A stretch of 64,000 bases of DNA, from contig NZ_LN794158.1 in NCBI RefSeq assembly GCF_000953015.1, forward strand, positions 1 to 64,000, in the 5' to 3' direction. Shown here piece by piece: positions 53,998 through 64,000 of the stretch; position 1 is the stretch's first letter, and every line of letters begins with the position of its first letter. The translations under genes were made by a program, and so were the position numbers. Source of the DNA: Candidatus Methylopumilus turicensis (GTDB taxonomy: Bacteria > Pseudomonadota > Gammaproteobacteria > Burkholderiales > Methylophilaceae). A model generated the notes under the pieces. That model was not told where the DNA came from, ran no database searches, and worked only from the letters and a program-made list of their open reading frames with translations.

Positions 53998-54026
53998 TTG
54001 ATAAATCACAAGCTTAGAGATAGAAT
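53998..54026 (+). promoter_or_regulatory. Promoter of rpsO
   Basis: TTGATA (53998-54003) and TAGAAT (54021-54026) are separated by 17 bases, about 77 bases before the rpsO start. The CCCGACCC that follows is GC-rich. The 5' leader this leaves could hold an S15 autoregulation site, but I cannot see a defined fold. Confidence 0.55.
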
Positions 54027-54102
54027 CCCGACCCTAGTCGTAAATGAATGTATGAGCGGATTCCCTGCTTTTACATTGACGCTAACTTAAAGGAAATAAA
54101 AG

Positions 54103-54372
54103 ATGGCAATGACCACACAAGATACCGCTAAAGTTGTCGCAGACTTTCAGCGCGCTCCAGCAGATACAGGTAGTCCAGAAGTGCAAGTTGCATTGTTAAC
54201 TGCACGTATCACCTACCTAACAGAACATTTCAAATCTAACAAAAAAGACAATCACTCACGTCGTGGTTTGCTAGCGATGGTTAGTCAACGTCGTAGTTTG
54301 TTGGACTATTTAAAACGTAAAGATCTAAGCCGTTATCAAGTCTTGATTGAGCGCTTAGGTATTCGTAAGTAA
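54103..54372 (+). CDS. rpsO: 30S ribosomal protein S15
   Basis: S15 binds 16S helix 22 early in 30S assembly. The 89-residue protein has [51 protein letters not shown], the complete family signature. It is preceded by AAGGA, has its own likely promoter and terminator, and precedes pnp. Confidence 0.98.
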
Positions 54373-54411
54373 GTTTTTGCAAAAAGCGATATACGATTTT
54401 TGCAGTTGAAT

Positions 54412-54459
54412 AAAAAGCCAGAAGCATTACGCAAGCGCGTGGTGCTTTTGGCTTTTTTG
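54412..54459 (+). terminator. Hairpin terminator between rpsO and pnp
   Basis: AGCCAGAAGCA and TGCTTTTGGCT pair (one G-U), with a loop containing GCAAGCGCG, followed by T6. In E. coli the rpsO-pnp gap also has a partial terminator and an RNase III site; here only the terminator-like hairpin can be seen. Confidence 0.7.
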
Positions 54460-54544
54460 TTGTACCAAAGTGGCGTCATGCCATCTATCGTTGCGCATTA
54501 TTAGGGTTGTAAATAATGCGCATTAATGTGAAAAAGGAAGACAA

Positions 54545-56665
54545 ATGTTTAATAAAGTAAAAAAGAGTATTCAATACGGTGCGCATGAGCTCACCTTAGA
54601 AACAGGTGAAATTGCACGCCAAGCAGATGGCGCTGTGATGGTGACTTATGGCGACACAGCAGTATTGGTCACTGTCGTTGGTAAAACCGAAGTTAAAGCG
54701 GGTCAAGACTTCTTCCCGTTGACTGTTGATTACCAAGAACGTACCTACGCTGCAGGTAAAATCCCAGGTGGCTTTTTCAAACGTGAAGGCCGTCCTTCAG
54801 AAAAAGAAACACTGACATCACGTTTAATCGATCGCCCATTGCGTCCATTATTCCCAGAAGCTTTTTACAATGAAGTACAAGTTGTTGCTACTGTGATGTC
54901 ATCAGATAGCGAAATCGATCCAGACATTCCTGCCATTATCGGTGCATCAGCAGCGATGGCAATTTCAGGTATTCCTTTCTACGGCCCACTAGGTGCTGCA
55001 CGTGTTGGTTACATTGATGGTGAATACATCATCAACCCATCAGCAACGCAAATGAAAGAGACTGAGTTGGATTTAGTGGTTGCAGCGACTGCAAGTGCTG
55101 TGATGATGGTTGAGTCAGAAGCGAAAGAGTTGCCAGAAGATGTCATGTTGGGTGCTGTTGTATTTGGCCATGAGCAAATGCAAGCAGTGATTAACATGAT
55201 TAATGAGATGGCAGCTGAAGTTGCTAAAGAAGCTTGGGACTGGACACCTCCAGCGCCAAATACAGCAGTGATTGAAAAAGTTACAGCAATCGCGAATGCA
55301 GACATTAACGCTGCATACCAAATCAAATCAAAAGGTGCGCGCTCTACGAAGTTAGACGAAATCAAAAATCGCGTCATGGCTGAGTTGATTACTGAAGAAA
55401 CTTCTACACAAGAAGCGAACGAAATTAAATCAGCATTCTTTGATTTAGAAGCAAAAGTTGTGCGTAGCCAAATCTTGAACGGTGAGCCGCGTATTGATGG
55501 CCGTGATACTCGAACAGTCCGTCCTATTACGATCCGTACAGGTGTGTTGCCACGTACCCATGGTTCAGCATTGTTTACGCGTGGTGAGACACAGGCGTTG
55601 GTTGTAGCGACATTGGGCACAGGCCGTGATGAGCAAACAATTGATGCGCTTGAAGGTGCTTATAACGACCGTTTCATGTTGCATTACAACATGCCTCCAT
55701 ACGCGACTGGCGAAACAGGCCGCGTTGGTACTCCAAAACGTCGTGAAATCGGCCATGGCCGTTTAGCTAAGCGTGCTTTGATTGCTGCGCTTCCTTCACA
55801 AGAGGACTTTGGTTACACCATCCGTATCGTTTCTGAAATTACAGAATCAAACGGTTCTAGCTCAATGGCTTCAGTGTGTGGCGGTTGCTTGGCGTTGATG
55901 GATGCTGGCGTGCCAGTTAAATCACACGTTGCTGGTATCGCAATGGGCTTGATTAAAGAAGGTAACCGTGTAGCTGTGTTAACAGACATCTTAGGTGATG
56001 AAGATCACTTGGGCGACATGGATTTTAAAGTAGCGGGTACAGAAGAAGGTATTACTGCACTTCAAATGGACATCAAGATTACAGGGATTACTGCTGAAAT
56101 CATGCAAGTGGCATTGTCACAAGCTAAAGAAGGCCGTATGCACATCTTGGGTATCATGAAGTCATCAATGGATACTTCACGTACTGAATTGTCAGCATTT
56201 GCACCACGTATCATCACGATGAAAATCAACCCAGAGAAGATTCGTGATGTGATTGGTAAAGGCGGTGCTGTTATTCGTGCTTTGACTGAAGAAACTGGCG
56301 CGACGATTGATATTGAAGATGACGGTACAATCAAAATTGGTTGCGTAAGTGCTGAAGCAGGCGAAGAAGCTAAAAGACGCATTGAAGCGATTACTGCTGA
56401 AGTTGAAATCGGCCAAGTTTACGAAGGTCCAGTGATTAAACTATTAGACTTTGGTGCAATTGTTTCATTGCTACCAGGTAAAGATGGTTTGTTGCACATC
56501 TCACAAATTGCACACGAACGTGTGAATGCTGTGGGCGACTTCTTAAAAGAGGGTCAAATCGTTAAAGTTAAAGTAGTTGAGGCTGATGAGAAGGGCCGTG
56601 TGCGTCTAAGCATGAAGGCTTTGATTGATGCACCAGTTGCTGCAGAAACACCAGCTGCCGAGTAA
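54545..56665 (+). CDS. pnp: Polynucleotide phosphorylase
   Basis: PNPase degrades RNA 3'-5' phosphorolytically and is part of the degradosome. The 706-residue protein has two RNase PH-like domains ([47 protein letters not shown]). They are followed by a KH domain ([34 protein letters not shown]) and an S1 domain ([28 protein letters not shown]). It ends the cluster and is convergent with dksA. Confidence 0.98.
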
Positions 56666-56684
56666 TTTGTAATAACGGCAGTGA

Positions 56685-56719
56685 ATAAAAAAAAGGCCCG
56701 AGCAATCGGGCCTTTTTGT
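56685..56719. terminator. Bidirectional terminator between pnp and dksA
   Basis: AAAAAAAAGGCCCGA-GCAA-TCGGGCCTTTTTG is a strong stem with A and T runs on both sides, suited to ending both convergent genes. Confidence 0.88.
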
Positions 56720-56738
56720 TTTTTTACGAAGAAGCTAA

Positions 56739-57158
56739 TTATTTGGCGACTTGTCTCTCACGCATCTCATCTAGGGTTTTGCAGTCAATACATAGGGTAG
56801 CTGTTGGGCGAGCCTCAAGACGTTTTAGACCAATCTCGATACCACAGCCATTGCAATAACCATACTCGTGCTCACTAATCTTTCTTAAAGTGCTTTCGAT
56901 TTTCTTAATCAGTTTACGTTCGCGGTCACGATTGCGTAGTTCTAAAGTCATGTCTGACTCTTGGCTAGCCCTATCATTTGGATCTGCGAACATCGTCACT
57001 TCGTCCTGCATCGTGTGCACTGTGCGGTCGATGTCATGACTTAATTCGTTCTTCCATTCAGTCAAAATCGCTGTGAAATGCGCAAGTTGCTTATCATTCA
57101 TGTACTCCTCATTAGCAGTTGCTACATAAGGAACAAATTGTTTTGAGATTTCAGCCAT
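56739..57158 (-). CDS. dksA: RNA polymerase-binding transcription factor DksA
   Basis: DksA enters the RNA polymerase secondary channel and, with ppGpp, lowers rRNA transcription. The 139-residue protein has the long coiled coil ([27 protein letters not shown]), the acidic tip ([31 protein letters not shown]) and the C4 zinc finger [25 protein letters not shown]. All four zinc cysteines are present. It is a single gene, convergent with pnp. Confidence 0.97.
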
Positions 57159-57280
57159 GTGACCCTTGAAGATTTAAATGATGATTGACTTAACTGCCAT
57201 TAACATAAAATTAAGGCGGTGCAAAGTGTACACGTATTGCTTAATGTATGCAAAGTTGTTAAATCAATCATAATTGTTAT

Positions 57281-58135
57281 TTATACGCCACGTAACTCCA
57301 TGGCTAATAATGTATTTTCCATGAGTGTGGCCACTGTCATTGGCCCAACGCCACCTGGTACAGGCGTAATCCAGCCGGCACGCTCTTTTGCCGTTTCAAA
57401 ATCAACGTCACCGCAGATGGTGCCATTATCTAAACGATTAATACCAATGTCCACGACGATAGCACCAGGTTTGATCCAATCGCCTTTAATTAAGCCAGCT
57501 TTGCCTGCGGCAGCCACTACTAAATCAGCGCGTGCAATGTTGCCTTGTAAGTCTTTAGTATGACGATGACAACAAGTCACCGTACACCCTGCAAGTAAAA
57601 GCTCAAGTGCCATCGGGCGGCCTACATGGTTAGAAACGCCCACAACAACTGCATCTAAGCCCTTAATATTGATGTTTGCACTATTGAGCATCTTGATCAC
57701 CCCAAAAGGCGTGCACGAGCGTAAGGTGGGTTGGCGAACAGCTAAGCGACCAATGTTATATGGATGGAAGCCATCCACGTCTTTACTTGCACTGATATGC
57801 TCAATAATTAACTTCTCATCAATTTGAGGCGGTAAAGGCGACTGCACCAGGATGCCGTCGATCGTGTCGTCCTCGTTTAGTTTTTGGATGAGCGCAAATA
57901 ATTCACTTTCTTTAATATCTGAGGCCAGATCATATGCGATCGAATTGATGCCGACTTTCTCGCAGGCCAATCGTTTGTTTCTTACATAGATGCTCGATGC
58001 AGGGTCGCCGCCAACCAAGATCACTGCGAGAGATGGTGCGCGCTTGCCAGCACTTAAACGTTGACTGATGCGTGACTTGATGCCGTTGAGCATGTCCTCC
58101 GCGATTGCTTTACCGCTAATAATTTGAGCCGACAT
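57281..58135 (-). CDS. folD: Methylenetetrahydrofolate dehydrogenase/cyclohydrolase FolD
   Basis: FolD interconverts 5,10-methylene-, methenyl- and 10-formyl-tetrahydrofolate with NADP. The start is ATG 58135 ([16 protein letters not shown]), giving 284 residues; the 19 upstream codons are not family-like. Key segments are [21 protein letters not shown] (with YxxxK), [12 protein letters not shown] and [17 protein letters not shown]. In a methylotroph it would also feed one-carbon metabolism. It lies next to the tRNA cluster. Confidence 0.97.
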
Positions 58136-58238
58136 AGATTTATATTTTGAGGGGCATGTAAAAAAATAGTATTTTAACAGGCTATTCGCCAATATTAGAA
58201 TTGACCTTTAGAATAATATGCGAGATAATCTCGCCCCT

Positions 58239-58315
58239 CGGGGTGTAGCGTAGCCTGGTAGCGCGCCTGCTTTGGGAGCAGGATGTCGGGAGTTCAAATC
58301 TCTCCACCCCGACCA
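58239..58315 (+). tRNA. tRNA-Pro (TGG)
   Basis: The 77-base cloverleaf has acceptor CGGGGTG pairing CACCCCG, anticodon TGG in CTTTGGGAG, T-loop TTCAAAT and an encoded CCA. It is first of a three-tRNA cluster. Confidence 0.97.
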
Positions 58316-58354
58316 GTTTTTGTCCCAATATTTGTATTAAGATTGTCCGACAAT

Positions 58355-58431
58355 CTGCCCGTAGCTCAACCGGATAGAGCACCAGCCTTCTAAGCTGGGG
58401 GTTACAGGTTCGATTCCTGTCGGGCAGGCCA
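58355..58431 (+). tRNA. tRNA-Arg (TCT)
   Basis: The 77-base cloverleaf has acceptor CTGCCCG pairing CGGGCAG, anticodon TCT in CTTCTAAG, T-loop TTCGATT and an encoded CCA. It reads AGA/AGG codons. Confidence 0.97.
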
Positions 58432-58448
58432 TACAAATCCAGTTTTAT

Positions 58449-58525
58449 GGTGGCTGTAGCTCAGTTGGTAGAGTCCCGGATTGTGATTCCGGTTGTCGTG
58501 GGTTCGAGCCCCATCAGTCACCCCA
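58449..58525 (+). tRNA. tRNA-His (GTG)
   Basis: The 77-base gene includes the extra G(-1) opposite a C73 discriminator that marks tRNA-His. The acceptor GTGGCTG pairs CAGTCAC, the anticodon is GTG in ATTGTGATT, and CCA is encoded. It is last in the cluster. Confidence 0.97.
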
Positions 58526-58649
58526 AAAACCCTAAATTATTTCAATGAGTTGATCGCGCGAACCTGTTTTGTGAATTGGTTTGACTACCTTAAGCCTTAT
58601 TCGTTGAATTGATGGATGGGCAACGGATTTGCATATAGAATTTCATGAC

Positions 58650-58856
58650 ATGAGTGAAAATAAAGTTAACGATGAGGATGAGGTTATTTGTATGTGCAGC
58701 GGGACCACGCGCGCAAAGGTACGTCTCCTTTTTGAGCAGGGCCTCGATGCCGAGGCCATCTCTCGTCGAACGGGTGCGCTCTCGGGTTGCGGTGGCTGCG
58801 AGTGGGAGATTGCGGACATGCTAAAAGCCCTTACGGCAGAAAAAGCTGGGCATTAA
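58650..58856 (+). CDS. BFD-like [2Fe-2S] protein
   Basis: The 68-residue protein matches the bacterioferritin-associated ferredoxin fold. Cysteines in VICMCSGTTRAKV (CxC) and LSGCGGCEWEIADML (CxxC) would bind a [2Fe-2S] cluster. BFD helps release iron from bacterioferritin, but no bacterioferritin gene is nearby. The start is placed at ATG 58650; a TTG at 58629 is possible. Its stop shares TTAA with the convergent Sak3 gene. Confidence 0.8.
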   Translation: MSENKVNDEDEVICMCSGTTRAKVRLLFEQGLDAEAISRRTGALSGCGGCEWEIADMLKALTAEKAGH

Positions 58857-59500
58857 ACCTTCTTATACTTCTTCAGTGCACTTCTCGTCCTACTATCCAG
58901 CAAACTCCAAAGTCCCACTTTCTCATCGTTTTCTAGCATCTCGCATCGTTCATGCGCGAGCCTTAATTCTTCAAGTTGTACAAGCTCAGTCACTTCCTCA
59001 GCGATTTTTGCGAGTAAGTCTTTCTCATCGTTATTAAATTCTTCTAGTGCGCCTGCCGTTGGGGTAATCGAGTCTCTAGGGGCCTTAATCTCTTTCGCTT
59101 TATTTATTTCTTGCTCTTCCTCCTTGGTCTCTTTCATCTCTGACATGGGAAGATCCTCCCCTGCGTAGATATACATCCCGAGTCCATGGAGTGATATCGC
59201 TTTGGCTAAGCATCTTTGCATTGCCGTATTCACAGAGAACGCATCAGGGTTATGAATCGCCTTATTTCTAAAGTCCATCACCGGCAACTGCGCTGTTCTG
59301 GATTTACCAAAGGCATGCACCGTACAGAACACCATCATGGTCTCACCAAAGATCCTAGGTTCTGCATACTCCCAACTCGCACTCTCATCAAGTTGCAGCA
59401 GTTGATCCACTGCCCAAGACCATGACAAGTAAGCTAAGCCATTCTTACGCTCGATATAGTCATTGACGTTGATCTTCCTCAGTTCTGTGTAATGCATCAT
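58853..59500 (-). CDS. Phage-type single-strand annealing protein (Sak3/DUF1071)
   Basis: The 215-residue protein has the DUF1071 (Sak3) core: NGLAYLSWSWAVDQLL near the start, then LPVMDFRNKAIHNP, NTAMQRCLAKAISLHGLGMYIYAGEDLP to about residue 125. A charged, Glu/Lys-rich tail follows. Such phage proteins anneal complementary single strands in recombination. ATGs lie at 59503, 59500 and 59497 after a GGAGG; 59500 has the best spacing. It overlaps the upstream unknown gene. No other phage genes are nearby, so it is probably a remnant or an acquired module. Confidence 0.82.
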   Translation of the reverse strand: MMHYTELRKINVNDYIERKNGLAYLSWSWAVDQLLQLDESASWEYAEPRIFGETMMVFCTVHAFGKSRTAQLPVMDFRNKAIHNPDAFSVNTAMQRCLAKAISLHGLGMYIYAGEDLPMSEMKETKEEEQEINKAKEIKAPRDSITPTAGALEEFNNDEKDLLAKIAEEVTELVQLEELRLAHERCEMLENDEKVGLWSLLDSRTRSALKKYKKV

Positions 59501-59514
59501 CATTTCCCTCCGCC

Positions 59515-59808
59515 TCAAGCCGCCTTGTCATCTAGAACAGGACCTTCAATCCCCTCATCAATCAAATACGATAGCTGAGACATGTCTTTGAAGTGGGGCG
59601 CATTTAAATTGGCGTTAATTTCTTCCATAGCCTTCTCATACATCCACTCAATACTCTTCCTATCCATCAGCTCAATGATATTGATCTCGCTATCCACAGG
59701 TCTGATCTCATCGATCTGCTCAAATACCATGCATATACACACATCATAAGAAGCTCCCTCACATGCCACCGTCGCCCACTCATAGTTCCTTGCACGTCTA
59801 TTAGTCAT
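59515..59808 (-). CDS. Hypothetical protein of the Sak3 module
   Basis: This acidic 97-residue protein has no family I recognise. It contains YEWATVACEGASYDVCICMVFEQIDEIRP and ends LSYLIDEGIEGPVLDDKAA. It has a good ribosome site (GGGAG, seven bases before ATG) and ends just before the Sak3 start codons, so the two are cotranscribed. It diverges from the HTH regulator across an operator-like gap. Confidence 0.7.
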   Translation of the reverse strand: MTNRRARNYEWATVACEGASYDVCICMVFEQIDEIRPVDSEINIIELMDRKSIEWMYEKAMEEINANLNAPHFKDMSQLSYLIDEGIEGPVLDDKAA

Positions 59809-59869
59809 CTCTTTTCTCCCGATTGTTGGAATTAATGTAAAATGAATAATTGTTACTTTGCATAAACAA

Positions 59870-59888
59870 ATTTCATTCTAAATGTAAT
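59870..59888. promoter_or_regulatory. Imperfect operator-like repeat
   Basis: TTTCATT-CTA-AATGTAA is an inverted repeat with one mismatch. It carries the same CATTC/AATG half-sites as the perfect palindrome 50 bases downstream, so it is a candidate second binding site for the adjacent HTH protein. Confidence 0.4.
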
Positions 59889-59921
59889 TCTAGATGAAAA
59901 TATTGCACTCAGCAATACTTA

Positions 59922-59940
59922 TTTTCATTCAGAATGAAAA
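59922..59940. promoter_or_regulatory. Perfect 19-bp palindrome, likely operator
   Basis: TTTTCATTC-A-GAATGAAAA has nine-base arms that match perfectly around one base. It abuts the AGGAG ribosome site (59941-59945) of the HTH gene. Binding here would block that gene, so autorepression is likely. A third inverted repeat, TATTGC/GCAATA, is at 59901-59917. Confidence 0.6.
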
Positions 59941-59950
59941 AGGAGTTTTT

Positions 59951-60163
59951 TTGATTAAATGTCATTTGTCTCGCATCATGGGCGAGAAAAAATTAAGGGT
60001 TGCTGATGTAGCTAGGGCTGTAGGTGTTCATAGAAATGCAATTACGCTACTTTATGAAGAGACTGCTAGTCGAGTTGAAATGGATACCATAAACAAGCTT
60101 TGTGCTTTTCTGGACTGCGGAATACAGGATCTATTTGAGTATCTTCCTGAGGGTGAGAATTAG
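59951..60163 (+). CDS. Small Cro/CI-type HTH regulator
   Basis: Starting at TTG 59951, five bases after AGGAG, the product is 70 residues (MIKCHLSRIMGEKKLRVADV...). Helix-turn-helix residues are LRVADVARAVGVHRNAITLLYEE, followed by METINKLCAF-like helices and an end LFEYLPEGEN, as in XRE regulators. A start at ATG 59894 would put the palindromes inside the gene and lacks a ribosome site. It is divergent from the Sak3 module and probably represses one or both sides. Confidence 0.85.
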   Translation: MIKCHLSRIMGEKKLRVADVARAVGVHRNAITLLYEETASRVEMDTINKLCAFLDCGIQDLFEYLPEGEN

Positions 60164-60425
60164 CCCTTGTTTTACAAAACGGACTAGTTCTCATTTAAAA
60201 ATACCCAAAAAATAGCTCCCTAGAAAAAACAAAGCCAATCCTTTGGAATTGAAGACTAGCATTAGCTTACAGCAATTTTCTATGTAAATTACTCATTAAA
60301 ATATGCTTTTTGCCAAACGAACCCAAGTGAGCGTTAAGCCATCTCTTGGATGAGATTCAGAGTTATTTGCATGATGCATAAGAATCTGTTTAGTCTGACT
60401 AACGCTTGCTGGTAAAATTCTATAG

Positions 60426-61184
60426 ATGAATGACAATCAGCTCCTCCGCTATAGCCGCCATATTCTGCTTCCTTCTATCGCTTATGAAGGCCAAGAGTTA
60501 CTAACCAAAAGCCATGCGCTGATAGTCGGTGCTGGCGGACTAGGCTCGCCAGCTGCTTTGTACATGGCCGCGGGCGGTGTCGGCACTCTAACGATTTGTG
60601 ACTTTGATGAGGTGGATTTAACTAATTTACAGCGTCAAATCATCCACACCACATCCTCAGTGGGTATCAATAAAGCGCTTTCTGCTCAGCAAGCCATACA
60701 GTCGATTAATCCTGAAGTAGTTGTGAATACGGTACAAGAAAAGTCGACTGAAGCCAGCATGGCTGCTTTAATTAGTGCTGCCGATGTGGTGTTAGATTGC
60801 TCAGATAATTTTGCTACACGCTATGCCCTTAATCGGCTTTGTCACCAATATAAAAAACCGTTGGTCTCAGGTGCAGCGATTGGTTTTGAAGGTCAAATTA
60901 CCGTATTTGATTTTAGGCATGAAGCTAGTCCTTGTTACCACTGTTTGTTTCCAGATGATGGTTCTGATACAGAAATGCGTTGCTCTGAGAATGGCGTATT
61001 TGCTCCGCTGGTCGGCATGATCGGTACCGCGCAAGCGGCTGAAGCGATGAAGCTTGTAATGAACATTGGTAAGAGTCTGGAAGGCCGTTTGCAATTACTA
61101 GATGCGCTGGCGATGGAATGGCGTACGATTAAGCTGAGTAAAGATTCAAAGTGCCAAGTCTGCGGCACAAAATCCTCAATCTAA
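60426..61184 (+). CDS. MoeB/ThiF/HesA-family adenylyltransferase
   Basis: This E1-like enzyme would adenylate the C-terminus of a sulfur-carrier protein (MoaD or ThiS). The 252-residue protein has LRYSRHILLP at the start, the ATP-binding loop VGAGGLGSPAALYMAAGGVG near residue 36 and LDCSDNFATRYALN. Zinc-binding cysteine pairs are in CYHCLFP and CQVCG, and a candidate catalytic cysteine is in MRCSENGVFAPLVG. Sequence alone does not separate MoeB from ThiF, and no pathway genes are adjacent. Confidence 0.88.
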   Translation: MNDNQLLRYSRHILLPSIAYEGQELLTKSHALIVGAGGLGSPAALYMAAGGVGTLTICDFDEVDLTNLQRQIIHTTSSVGINKALSAQQAIQSINPEVVVNTVQEKSTEASMAALISAADVVLDCSDNFATRYALNRLCHQYKKPLVSGAAIGFEGQITVFDFRHEASPCYHCLFPDDGSDTEMRCSENGVFAPLVGMIGTAQAAEAMKLVMNIGKSLEGRLQLLDALAMEWRTIKLSKDSKCQVCGTKSSI

Positions 61185-61245
61185 TTTTTGATGACGGCTG
61201 TCAAGCTGATATGGCTGATACAAGGCCTTATGTTAAAATTACGGC

Positions 61246-64000
61246 ATGAATACAGACACCCAACAAAACAACACGGCCGCAGTTAGCGAACTCGCCAAGT
61301 CCTTTGACCCCAAAACCCTTGAAAGTAAGTGGTATGAATTCTGGGAAAGCCAAGGCTATTATGCTGCTGGTTTAGACACCACCAAGCAAGATAACTTTTG
61401 CATCTTGCTGCCACCACCCAATGTAACAGGCACCTTGCACATGGGGCATGGCTTTAACCAAACCATTATGGACGCGTTAACGCGTTACCACCGCATGCGC
61501 GGCGATAACACGCTTTGGCAGCCGGGCACTGACCATGCAGGGATTGCAACGCAAATCGTTGTTGAGCGTCAATTAGATGCCCAAGGCGTGAGCCGTCATG
61601 ATTTAGGCCGAGAGAAATTCCTAGAAAAAGTTTGGGAATGGAAAGAATACTCAGGCGGCACAATAACGAAGCAAATGCGACGCTTGGGCACATCACCTGA
61701 CTGGTCGCGTGAGCGCTTCACGATGGATGCTGGCCTTAATAAAGTGGTGACTGAAAGTTTTGTGCGCCTGTATAACGAAGGTTTGATTTACCGCGGTAAA
61801 CGCTTGGTGAATTGGGATCCGAAACTTGGCACAGCCGTTTCAGATTTGGAAGTGATTTCCGAAGAAGAAGATGGCTCAATGTGGCATATCAACTACCCAT
61901 TGGCAGATGGCTCAGGCCAATTAACCGTTGCAACGACACGTCCTGAGACGATGTTGGGCGACGTTGCGGTGATGGTGCATCCTGAAGATGAGCGTTATAA
62001 ACACCTCATTGGCAAGCAAGTGAAGCTGCCTTTATGCAACCGTGAAATCCTGATTATTGCTGACGATTATGTGGATAAAGAGTTTGGCACAGGCGTTGTA
62101 AAAGTGACGCCAGCGCATGACTTTAATGACAATATGGTCGGCCAAAGACAAGGTTTGGATAAGATCATTATCTTGAACCTTGAAGGTTTCGTACCAAGCA
62201 CTGCAGAAGTCTATGCCGCCAATGGCGAGGCAAAACAATCGATCGATTTACCTAAAAATCTAGTGGGCTTAGAGCGCTTTGCGGCGCGTAAGCAAATCGT
62301 TGCTGATTTAGAAGCGCAAGGCTACCTAGTTAAGATTGATAAACACAAACTTAAAGTGCCACGCGGCGACCGTACAGGCGTTGTAATTGAGCCGATGTTG
62401 ACTGATCAATGGTTTGTGGCGATGAGTAAACCATCGGCAGATGGTAAGAGCATTACGCAAAAAGCGATAGATGTTGTGGCTTCTGGTGAGATTAAGTTTT
62501 ATCCAGAAAATTGGGTCAATACTTACAACCAATGGCTCAATAACATTCAAGATTGGTGTATTTCTCGCCAGCTTTGGTGGGGTCATCAAATCCCTGCTTG
62601 GTATAGCGATGATGGCAAAGTGTATGTGGCACATGATGAAGCCGAAGCAAAAGATTTGGCCGCCAAAGATGGTTATGCAGGTAACTTGAAACGAGATGAT
62701 GATGTCCTTGACACTTGGTATTCATCAGCGCTTTGGCCTTTCTCACTTTAGACTGGACTGGCGACGAAGCGAAAGATGCTACCAATATTGCGCTACAACA
62801 GTACTTACCTTCATCTGTGCTGGTGACCGGTTTCGATATTATTTTCTTCTGGGTCGCGCGCATGGTCATGATGACCAAGCACATCACAGGAAAAATCCCA
62901 TTTAAAGACGTTTATGTGCACGGCTTAATCCGCGATGCGGAAGGTCAAAAAATGTCTAAATCAAAAGGCAACGTGCTTGATCCGATTGATTTGATTGATG
63001 GCATTTCGCTAGAAGATTTACTGAAAAAACGCACTACTGGCTTGATGAATCCTAAGCAAGCGGAAAGCATTGAAAAGAAAACACGTAAAGAATTCCCTGA
63101 AGGAATTTCAGCTTTTGGTACGGATGCGTTGCGCTTTACCTTTGCAAGTCTTGCCAGCCCTGGCCGTGATATCAAATTTGATATGCAACGCTGTGAAGGC
63201 TACCGTAATTTCTGCAACAAGCTTTGGAACGCAACCCGCTTTGTGCTGATGAATACTGAAGGCCAAGATTGTGGACTTGAGCAATGTAGCACTAAGCCAG
63301 AGAACTATTTGAGCTTCTCACAGGCAGATCGCTGGATTGTGAGTTTATTGCAACGTGTAGAAGCGGATATTGAAAAAGGGTTTGCAGATTACCGTTTTGA
63401 TAACGTCGCACAAAGCATTTATAAGTTTGTTTGGGATGAGTATTGCGATTGGTATTTGGAACTTGCCAAGGTGCAAATTCAGCAAGGGACAGACGCTGAG
63501 AAACGTGCAACTCGCCGCACCTTACTTCGCGTGCTAGAAACCATTCTTCGTTTGGCACACCCAGTGATGCCATTTATCACCGAAGAAATTTGGCAGACTA
63601 TCGGCAAAATGAGTGGCCGCACTGGCCCAAGCATTATGTTGGAAACCTACCCTAAAGCTCAGCCTGAGAAGATTGACGAGGCCGCAGAAGCTTGGGTGGA
63701 TTTGCTAAAAGAAGCGGTTGATGCATGCCGTAGCTTACGTGGTGAAATGAATATTTCGCCGGCAACTAAAGTGCCGCTAATTGCCGCAGGCGATGTCACT
63801 AAGTTGCAAGCTTATGCGCCACATTTAAAAGCCCTGGCTAAATTAGCGGATGTGGAAATTGTGGCTGATTTACCAGAAGCGGATGCACCTGTGGCATTGG
63901 CTGGTGACTTCAAGCTCATGCTAAAAATTGAAATTGATGTTGCGGCTGAAAAAGAGCGCTTGGGTAAAGAGATTGCGCGATTAAGTGGTGAGATTGCGAA
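61246..64000 (+). pseudogene. valS: Valyl-tRNA synthetase with apparent frameshift, partial at right edge
   Basis: ValRS charges tRNA-Val. The first frame (61246-62751) has [11 protein letters not shown] (HIGH motif) near residue 65 and the editing domain, and stops at TAG 62749-62751 after [10 protein letters not shown]. The frame beginning at 62745 then reads [27 protein letters not shown] and the KMSKSKGN motif near 62949, and is open to 64000. The family reads FSTL across this point, so one base appears to be missing near 62743-62746. Because the gene is normally essential, a sequencing error is at least as likely as a true mutation. Confidence 0.9.

Follow-up and report, generated by a model that had tools for sequence, protein, structure and literature searches.

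Genes and features at the locus

The window, by which is meant the whole 64,000-nucleotide stretch analyzed here, has a G+C content of 44.7% and belongs to the genome designated G000. The region of interest is bordered by folD and dksA on the left and by thiF/moeB and valS on the right, as read by eye from the open reading frames of positions 54000-64000; the identity of ThiF was also given by Pfam. Core genes therefore do lie on both sides, as an earlier note made from the sequence had stated. The features found between them are as follows.

58239-58525: tRNA-Pro/Arg/His cluster
58629-58856: BFD-like [2Fe-2S] open reading frame between the tRNAs and sak
58853..58856: left boundary, where sak and the BFD-like frame overlap at their stops by four bases (sequence; same junction in G002)
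58853..59497, minus strand: sak, single-strand annealing protein of the Sak3/DUF1071 family (PF06378), 214 aa (Pfam, PHROG, solved relatives)
59515..59808, minus strand: partner, 97 aa, of no known family (Pfam and PHROG scans, structure prediction)
59871..59940: region between the divergent genes with repeated TTTCATTC/GAATGAAA half-sites, probable operators
59922-59940: perfect 9-bp palindrome within the half-site region (sequence)
59894..60163, plus strand: HTH_26 (Cro/CI-type) regulator, 89 aa from ATG 59894 or 70 aa from TTG 59951 (Pfam)
60171..60198, plus strand: terminal-site-like 28-mer that recurs at RSTGP/XRE/tyrosine-recombinase loci of other genera
60226..60283, plus strand: right-end repeat unit with core AAAACAAAGCCAAT, a diverged copy of a tandem unit of about 91 bp (comparison of copies)
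60314..60327, plus strand: core CAAACGAACCCAAG of the last unit, probable right end of the islet (comparison of copies)

The module had been described as lying next to the three tRNA genes and ending at position 60163. The tRNA cluster is present, but the BFD-like frame intervenes before sak, and the non-coding right end at 60171-60327 was found to belong to the module as well. In agreement with the earlier note, no integrase, terminase or structural gene was seen among the open reading frames of 54000-64000, which were read by eye, five of them being scanned with Pfam. The window copy also lacks a transposase gene (frames by eye, Pfam), a tyrosine recombinase gene and a gene for RSTGP, a protein of 275-310 residues, named for its N-terminal motif, that is carried by larger copies of the module. 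An integrase together with replication or packaging genes, as expected of a PICI-like phage satellite, was not found at the window locus (frames, Pfam, PHROG). A scan of 58100-60500 for known RNAs returned the tRNAs only, plus two sub-threshold matches overlying them, and a scan of 58500-60500 for promoters and terminators returned none.

The sak product matched Pfam SSAP_Sak (PF06378) at 1e-36, with 126.2 bits against a curated cut-off of 22.3, and PHROG 659 at 5e-41. Relatives of solved structure are 8qe9 and 8pq8, and the DUF1071 protein 8qe9 aligned to Sak at 1.1e-23 (phmmer). The protein is a member of the Sak3/DUF1071 annealing family, as had been proposed, and is predicted to anneal single-stranded DNA.

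The partner, whose stop codon lies about 11-17 bp upstream of sak, matched no Pfam or PHROG family above cut-off and is as unfamiliar as first thought. Its predicted fold consists of three strands and a helix, with pLDDT blocks of 74-85 over residues 11-70 and low values elsewhere. Fold searches with the partner (PDB, viral) and with RSTGP (PDB) gave nothing at E <= 0.001. Two possible relatives of the partner were considered and rejected by profile comparison: a small phage frame upstream of sak (probabilities of 0.2% and 0.1%) and a 90-residue frame of G068 (3.4%).

The small divergent regulator was likewise borne out, by an HTH_26 match of 1.1e-18 in Pfam. The TTG start is preceded, five bases upstream, by AAGGAG, while the longer frame from the ATG is open in all three copies compared and similar in the two besides the window. 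Close relatives of this regulator were found only at G009:C9 and G002:C33 (90 and 87%); another family gave a match of 66%, and the remaining matches were weaker. Most of the half-sites between the two genes are retained in L055 and L062, with an imperfect palindrome in both; they are probable operators.

A dispersed family of islets

The sak module, which the earlier note called an orphan, is a dispersed multicopy family of islets in the genus. The sak gene was found in 9 of 41 genomes searched, with only a 34-residue fragment in G005, and a profile search placed it in 12 of 150 genomes of the family, distributed over three genera. Seven of the ten genomes of the window's genus carry sak and the other three have no full sak. 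Full-length copies number four in G009, three in G002, where one has an internal stop, two in G007 and one in G001. G002 and G007 each have two further partial copies, those of G007 at contig ends, and G001 has a remnant. G004 and G000 have one sak each, and that of G008 is truncated. The genomes with several copies are metagenome-assembled, and the G002 assembly is 81% complete. The partner was present at 18 places in 7 of 25 genomes. A 224-residue Arm-DNA-binding integrase fragment (L073:8426-9100) adjoins the truncated sak of G008.

Positions 58100-61200 were aligned with 24 fetched contexts, one of which is the window's own. The alignment showed a conserved left block (58863-59819, sak and partner), a variable middle and a right block (60171-60279) that is conserved in many copies. 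In the copies examined, homology on the left stops at the 3' end of sak, and in some of them the flank supplies the stop codon. The islets range in size from about 1.4 to 6 kb. Three kinds of regulator occur in the middle, one per copy: HTH_26, a 73-residue Cro-like protein, or a CI-like protein of about 228 residues with an S24 peptidase. Larger copies add a toxin-antitoxin pair (AbiEii and an HTH protein, or a PIN toxin and a small antitoxin-like gene) and also RSTGP, which matched no family above cut-off in the copies scanned.

The right end is formed by the 28-bp site, by repeats of about 91 bp, or by both. The tandem units start with AAAAC(A/G)AA(G/C)CCAAT, and ACAGCGATATTTTT follows 29 bases after this 14-bp core. 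The exact unit pattern was found in 6 of 150 family genomes, all of the window's genus; a reversed control pattern gave no match, and the unit pattern had none among viral contigs. It is absent from G000 because the units of that genome have diverged. A second right-end unit of G000 was observed at 1126368 (L310), without sak, beside an RSTGP gene (1126521-1127336) and between thrS and a ParA-like gene. The possibility that the repeat unit forms a conserved hairpin was considered and rejected, the folds varying among units when judged against mononucleotide shuffles; the 35 sequences folded included two false matches in coding genes, L055:15809 and L059:11443.

In sister species, the sites examined are empty and closed, contain a right end only, or contain another version of the islet. 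At the fum site, the G009 islet (L055) is absent in G007 and G003, where the aligned flanks lie 8 and 9 bp apart. At the same site G004 retains the right end alone, with about 140 bp of other sequence, G001 has a shortened islet and G000 another insertion. The M16 site is occupied in G009 and G007, empty in G005 and G000, and reduced to the right end in G001. The whole trio of the window (thiF) site is present in G002, another version in G009, and the right end only, joined to the BFD frame, in G001; in G003 and G008 other genes lie between the tRNAs and thiF. Synteny of the trio, a check suggested by the earlier note, thus holds in one sister, G002, with the same left junction, and is patchy elsewhere in the genus. 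Inspection of the fum and M16 sites by eye showed no target-site duplication, and no transposition event or excision was seen among the copies compared. The fum site is apparently a hot spot for insertion. Frames of 212-237 aa with similar N-terminal motifs were also observed there in three genomes (L296:990-1697, L060:996-1634 and L059:6884-7597); that of G000 matches an IS1595-type transposase domain and the other two no Pfam family.

A tRNA scan covered 24 loci, with contexts partly cut by contig ends. In G004 (L072) a tRNA-Leu lies 41 bp from sak, and at the same site (secG) the distance is 0.9 kb in G001 (L058) and 1.9 kb in G009 (L054). A tRNA-Leu is about 6 kb away in G008 and another lies 38 bp from the end of a Sak-exonuclease islet in G068 (L320); a tmRNA is found about 3 kb away in G022. 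The three tRNAs of the window are also present in G002 (L062). The sequence fetched around the fum, M16 and ahpC copies, in part truncated by contig ends, showed no tRNA, nor did that around the other loci. The tRNA genes beside some islets point to insertion by an integrase rather than by Sak.

Phage relatives, selection and turnover

Sak was matched by 520 of 50,697 phage records, in no case over 80% of its length. In the best 25 of the 520 the match ends at residue 117-118, the best being 68% and 67%; the Sak of Methylophilales phage Venkman reaches 67% over 115 residues. Viral contigs contain full-length relatives of up to 70%, and the best contig also encodes a phage lysozyme. The partner had no match in the 50,697 phage records, nor in two pattern scans of viral contigs, and islet DNA matched two phage records over part of sak only. 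The comparison with phages that the earlier note had suggested thus did not find the same gene set. Since Sak has relatives in phages and viral contigs and the partner was found in neither collection, the ancestry of Sak is, judged from these comparisons, phage-like and the islet itself is not a phage. Islet Sak is of the same sequence family as the phage Sak3/DUF1071 (PF06378) proteins, but its gene does not lie beside ssb, rep or structural genes; it resides in multicopy chromosomal islets and is accompanied by an unrelated partner.

Substitution rates indicate that the sak copies are under strong purifying selection, which the earlier note had proposed as a further check. The median dN/dS was 0.054 over 66 pairs of 12 near-full-length copies, one of which gives only 24 codons owing to an internal stop; the reading frame is intact in the other 11 of the 12.

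At the thiF site, G000 and G002 were compared gene by gene. The dS and dN values were 1.01 and 0.069 for sak, 1.04 and 0.079 for the partner, and 0.79 and 0.079 for the regulator, which has a dN/dS of 0.10 over 69 codons. For the neighboring genes they were 0.96 and 0.057 (thiF), 0.73 and 0.091 (BFD), 0.91 and 0.033 (dksA), and 1.73 and 0.047 (folD). These rates look like simple vertical inheritance under selection.

The fum site gave a different picture. Between G009 and G002, dS is 1.29 for sak and only 0.33 and 0.16 for the flanking fum and UDP-glucose dehydrogenase genes. Because sak is far more diverged than both flanks, the islet there has been replaced or has inserted twice. The same comparison at the M16 site says little about turnover because the flank dS is saturated or high.

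A tree built on sak only had poor resolution. When 13 sak-partner blocks were used, copies clustered by genome with five label changes, the fewest possible, and none of 200 shuffles was as low; the two G007 copies do not group. Support is weak for the G009 group (61/19) and strong for the G002 group (99/99). Same-site clades were rejected at all four sites tested (AU p of 0.020, 0.009, 0.0006 and 0.0008). The excess divergence at the fum site, together with grouping by genome and not by site, suggests that the module is copied or converted between sites. A grouping of right ends by site was also considered. It was seen with the flanks included and was rejected, since after trimming neither site nor genome groups.

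Shared ends and the possible movement of the islet

The window and 54 loci were scanned for the 28-mer, with at most 6 mismatches allowed. Positions 60171-60198 match with two mismatches, and 20 mononucleotide shuffles of the window gave no match. The site occurs in seven sak islets or remnants (the window included), at two right-end-only sites, and at five RSTGP loci of five genera, four of which have a tyrosine recombinase. It is missing from many sak islets, for example L054, L055, L058, L062, L069 and L074. In L360 (G009), L372 (G103), L373 (G107) and L375 (G096) the 28-mer lies just downstream of RSTGP, and the distance in L374 (G057) is about 2 kb. RSTGP adjoins a small XRE gene and a divergent Phage_integrase recombinase (Int) in L360, L372, L373 and L374, and an XRE gene only in L375.

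The three genes (RSTGP, XRE and divergent tyrosine recombinase) constitute a mobile element observed in four Methylophilaceae genera, at L360:10997-13042, L372:3079-5108, L373:2589-4658 and L374:4131-6335. No published name for these elements was found in the open-licence literature, and a 12-mer of the 28-bp site gave one unrelated match in the literature. The L360 Int scores as XerA/C/D-like, all below cut-off, and the integron model gives 22 bits against 265. In G103, the sequence on the far side of the 28-bp site (L372:1362-2971) resembles a cassette array, with toxin-antitoxin-type genes (HicA, HicB-like, HigB-like, HTH) in a row.

The polarity of the window, with sak-partner, a divergent HTH gene and then the 28-mer, is that of Int, a divergent XRE gene, RSTGP and the 28-mer, so that partner-sak occupies the place of the integrase. 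Islets and Int elements are alike in the 28-bp site and in a small adjoining XRE regulator divergent from the recombination gene. They differ in the repeat array at the right end, in that the islet has Sak and the partner where the elements have the integrase, and in RSTGP, which in the islets is either absent or in the opposite orientation.

RSTGP was found in 16 of 100 family genomes, among them all 11 that carry sak (hypergeometric 3e-11 with kinship ignored; E limits of 1e-6 and 1e-8). Several g1 copies, as well as G022 and G068, have the two genes a short distance apart; they are on different contigs in G057 and G103, and about 1.07 Mb apart in G000 (RSTGP at 1126521). The Int gene of G000 lies at 932736, in an Int-XRE pair at about 932.4-933.6 kb without an adjoining RSTGP or 28-mer. 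Relatives of Int also occur in G001 and, in partial form, in G004. At 1e-10 there was no Int match in the sak carriers G002, G007, G008 and G022.

The islet is real and well maintained, and its anatomy is new while its main protein is known. It is somewhat probable that the window holds one copy of a family of small recombination islets that descend from phage and act as mobile elements in the genus. The best reading is that of a regulated, (recently) mobile recombination islet of phage ancestry rather than a decaying prophage. The evidence favors a selected islet of a mobile type, a reading that was not among the options of the earlier note. The HTH_26 protein would bind the half-sites between the divergent genes and keep partner-sak off. 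On derepression, Sak would anneal single strands of imperfect homology, perhaps with the partner as accessory, and this annealing could let islet copies convert one another and re-insert where an islet end already sits. First insertion or excision at the 28-bp site might be carried out in trans by the tyrosine recombinase of an RSTGP-XRE-Int element. The mover of the islet may be either Sak or that recombinase.

The possibility was considered that the recombinase alone moves the islet at the 28-bp site, as a non-autonomous passenger in which sak and the partner are cargo that aids replication or repair. This is a serious, if tentative, alternative. The Int elements of G009, G103 and G107 share the 28-mer and the polarity, Int genes exist in G000, G001 and in part G004, and there are tRNA genes beside the secG-site and thiF-site islets and that of G068. 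However, several copies are without the 28-mer, and the carriers without an Int match (E <= 1e-10) include G002 and G007, which both have several copies, in addition to G008 and G022, G002 being 81% complete. At the other extreme, partner and Sak might have replaced the integrase in a tyrosine-recombinase chassis and now drive an element that spreads between homologous ends by single-strand annealing, with neither transposase nor integrase of its own. Such an annealing-driven element is rather unlikely.

The earlier note had left a choice between a prophage remnant and a retained module with a host role. That the module is a domesticated host recombination function, for repair or DNA uptake, would agree with selection similar to that on a neighboring core gene and with vertical inheritance at the thiF site. 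Nevertheless, a fixed host role is not well supported, since the module is patchy in the genus (full sak is missing in three of ten genomes), occupies several sites and turns over at the fixed fum site; its regulators are moreover of phage type. Domestication is accordingly judged improbable.

An islet in which Sak, the repressor and toxin-antitoxin pairs hinder phages that use a related Sak is very doubtful. AbiEii-like genes do occur in larger copies, and a Methylophilales phage has a related Sak, but no PADLOC model matched sak or the partner at 0.01 and the window copy has no toxin-antitoxin pair. A decaying prophage remnant is scarcely credible and already contradicted by the selection test: although Sak and the CI/S24-type and Cro-like repressors are phage types and an Arm-domain integrase fragment stands beside the truncated sak of G008, simple decay is unlikely because the trio was not found in phage, is syntenic in G002 and has a Sak under purifying selection (dN/dS of 0.05, frames intact in 11 of 12 copies), and the module is multicopy, with no phage neighbor genes seen at the window site and a partner not found in phages.

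Most of what is known of annealing proteins concerns their use by phages. The SXT/R391 elements, which are conjugative, about 100 kb long and equipped with their own integrase, carry Bet/Exo annealing recombination. The islets resemble them in that a phage-type annealing protein is used by a non-phage element, but are neither conjugative nor equipped with an integrase. If the preferred reading of a mobile recombination islet is true, a selected, site-replaced islet that shares an end with integrase elements would offer a simple natural test of DNA spread by annealing only, and would explain the persistence of DUF1071 genes outside phages in streamlined freshwater bacteria. DUF1071 genes have been mentioned in "transposon-like regions" of Gram-negative bacteria, in one sentence with data not shown (PMC8093625). 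Like those regions, as far as that sentence describes them, the islets are situated away from prophage genes; their anatomy, ends, copies and selection are given here and not in that statement. No other published description of these islets was found in the open-licence literature, and the islet family makes the brief published remark testable. In another genus, G068 has an islet composed of RSTGP, HTH, XRE, a 90-aa frame, Sak and a YqaJ exonuclease (L320:836-3784).
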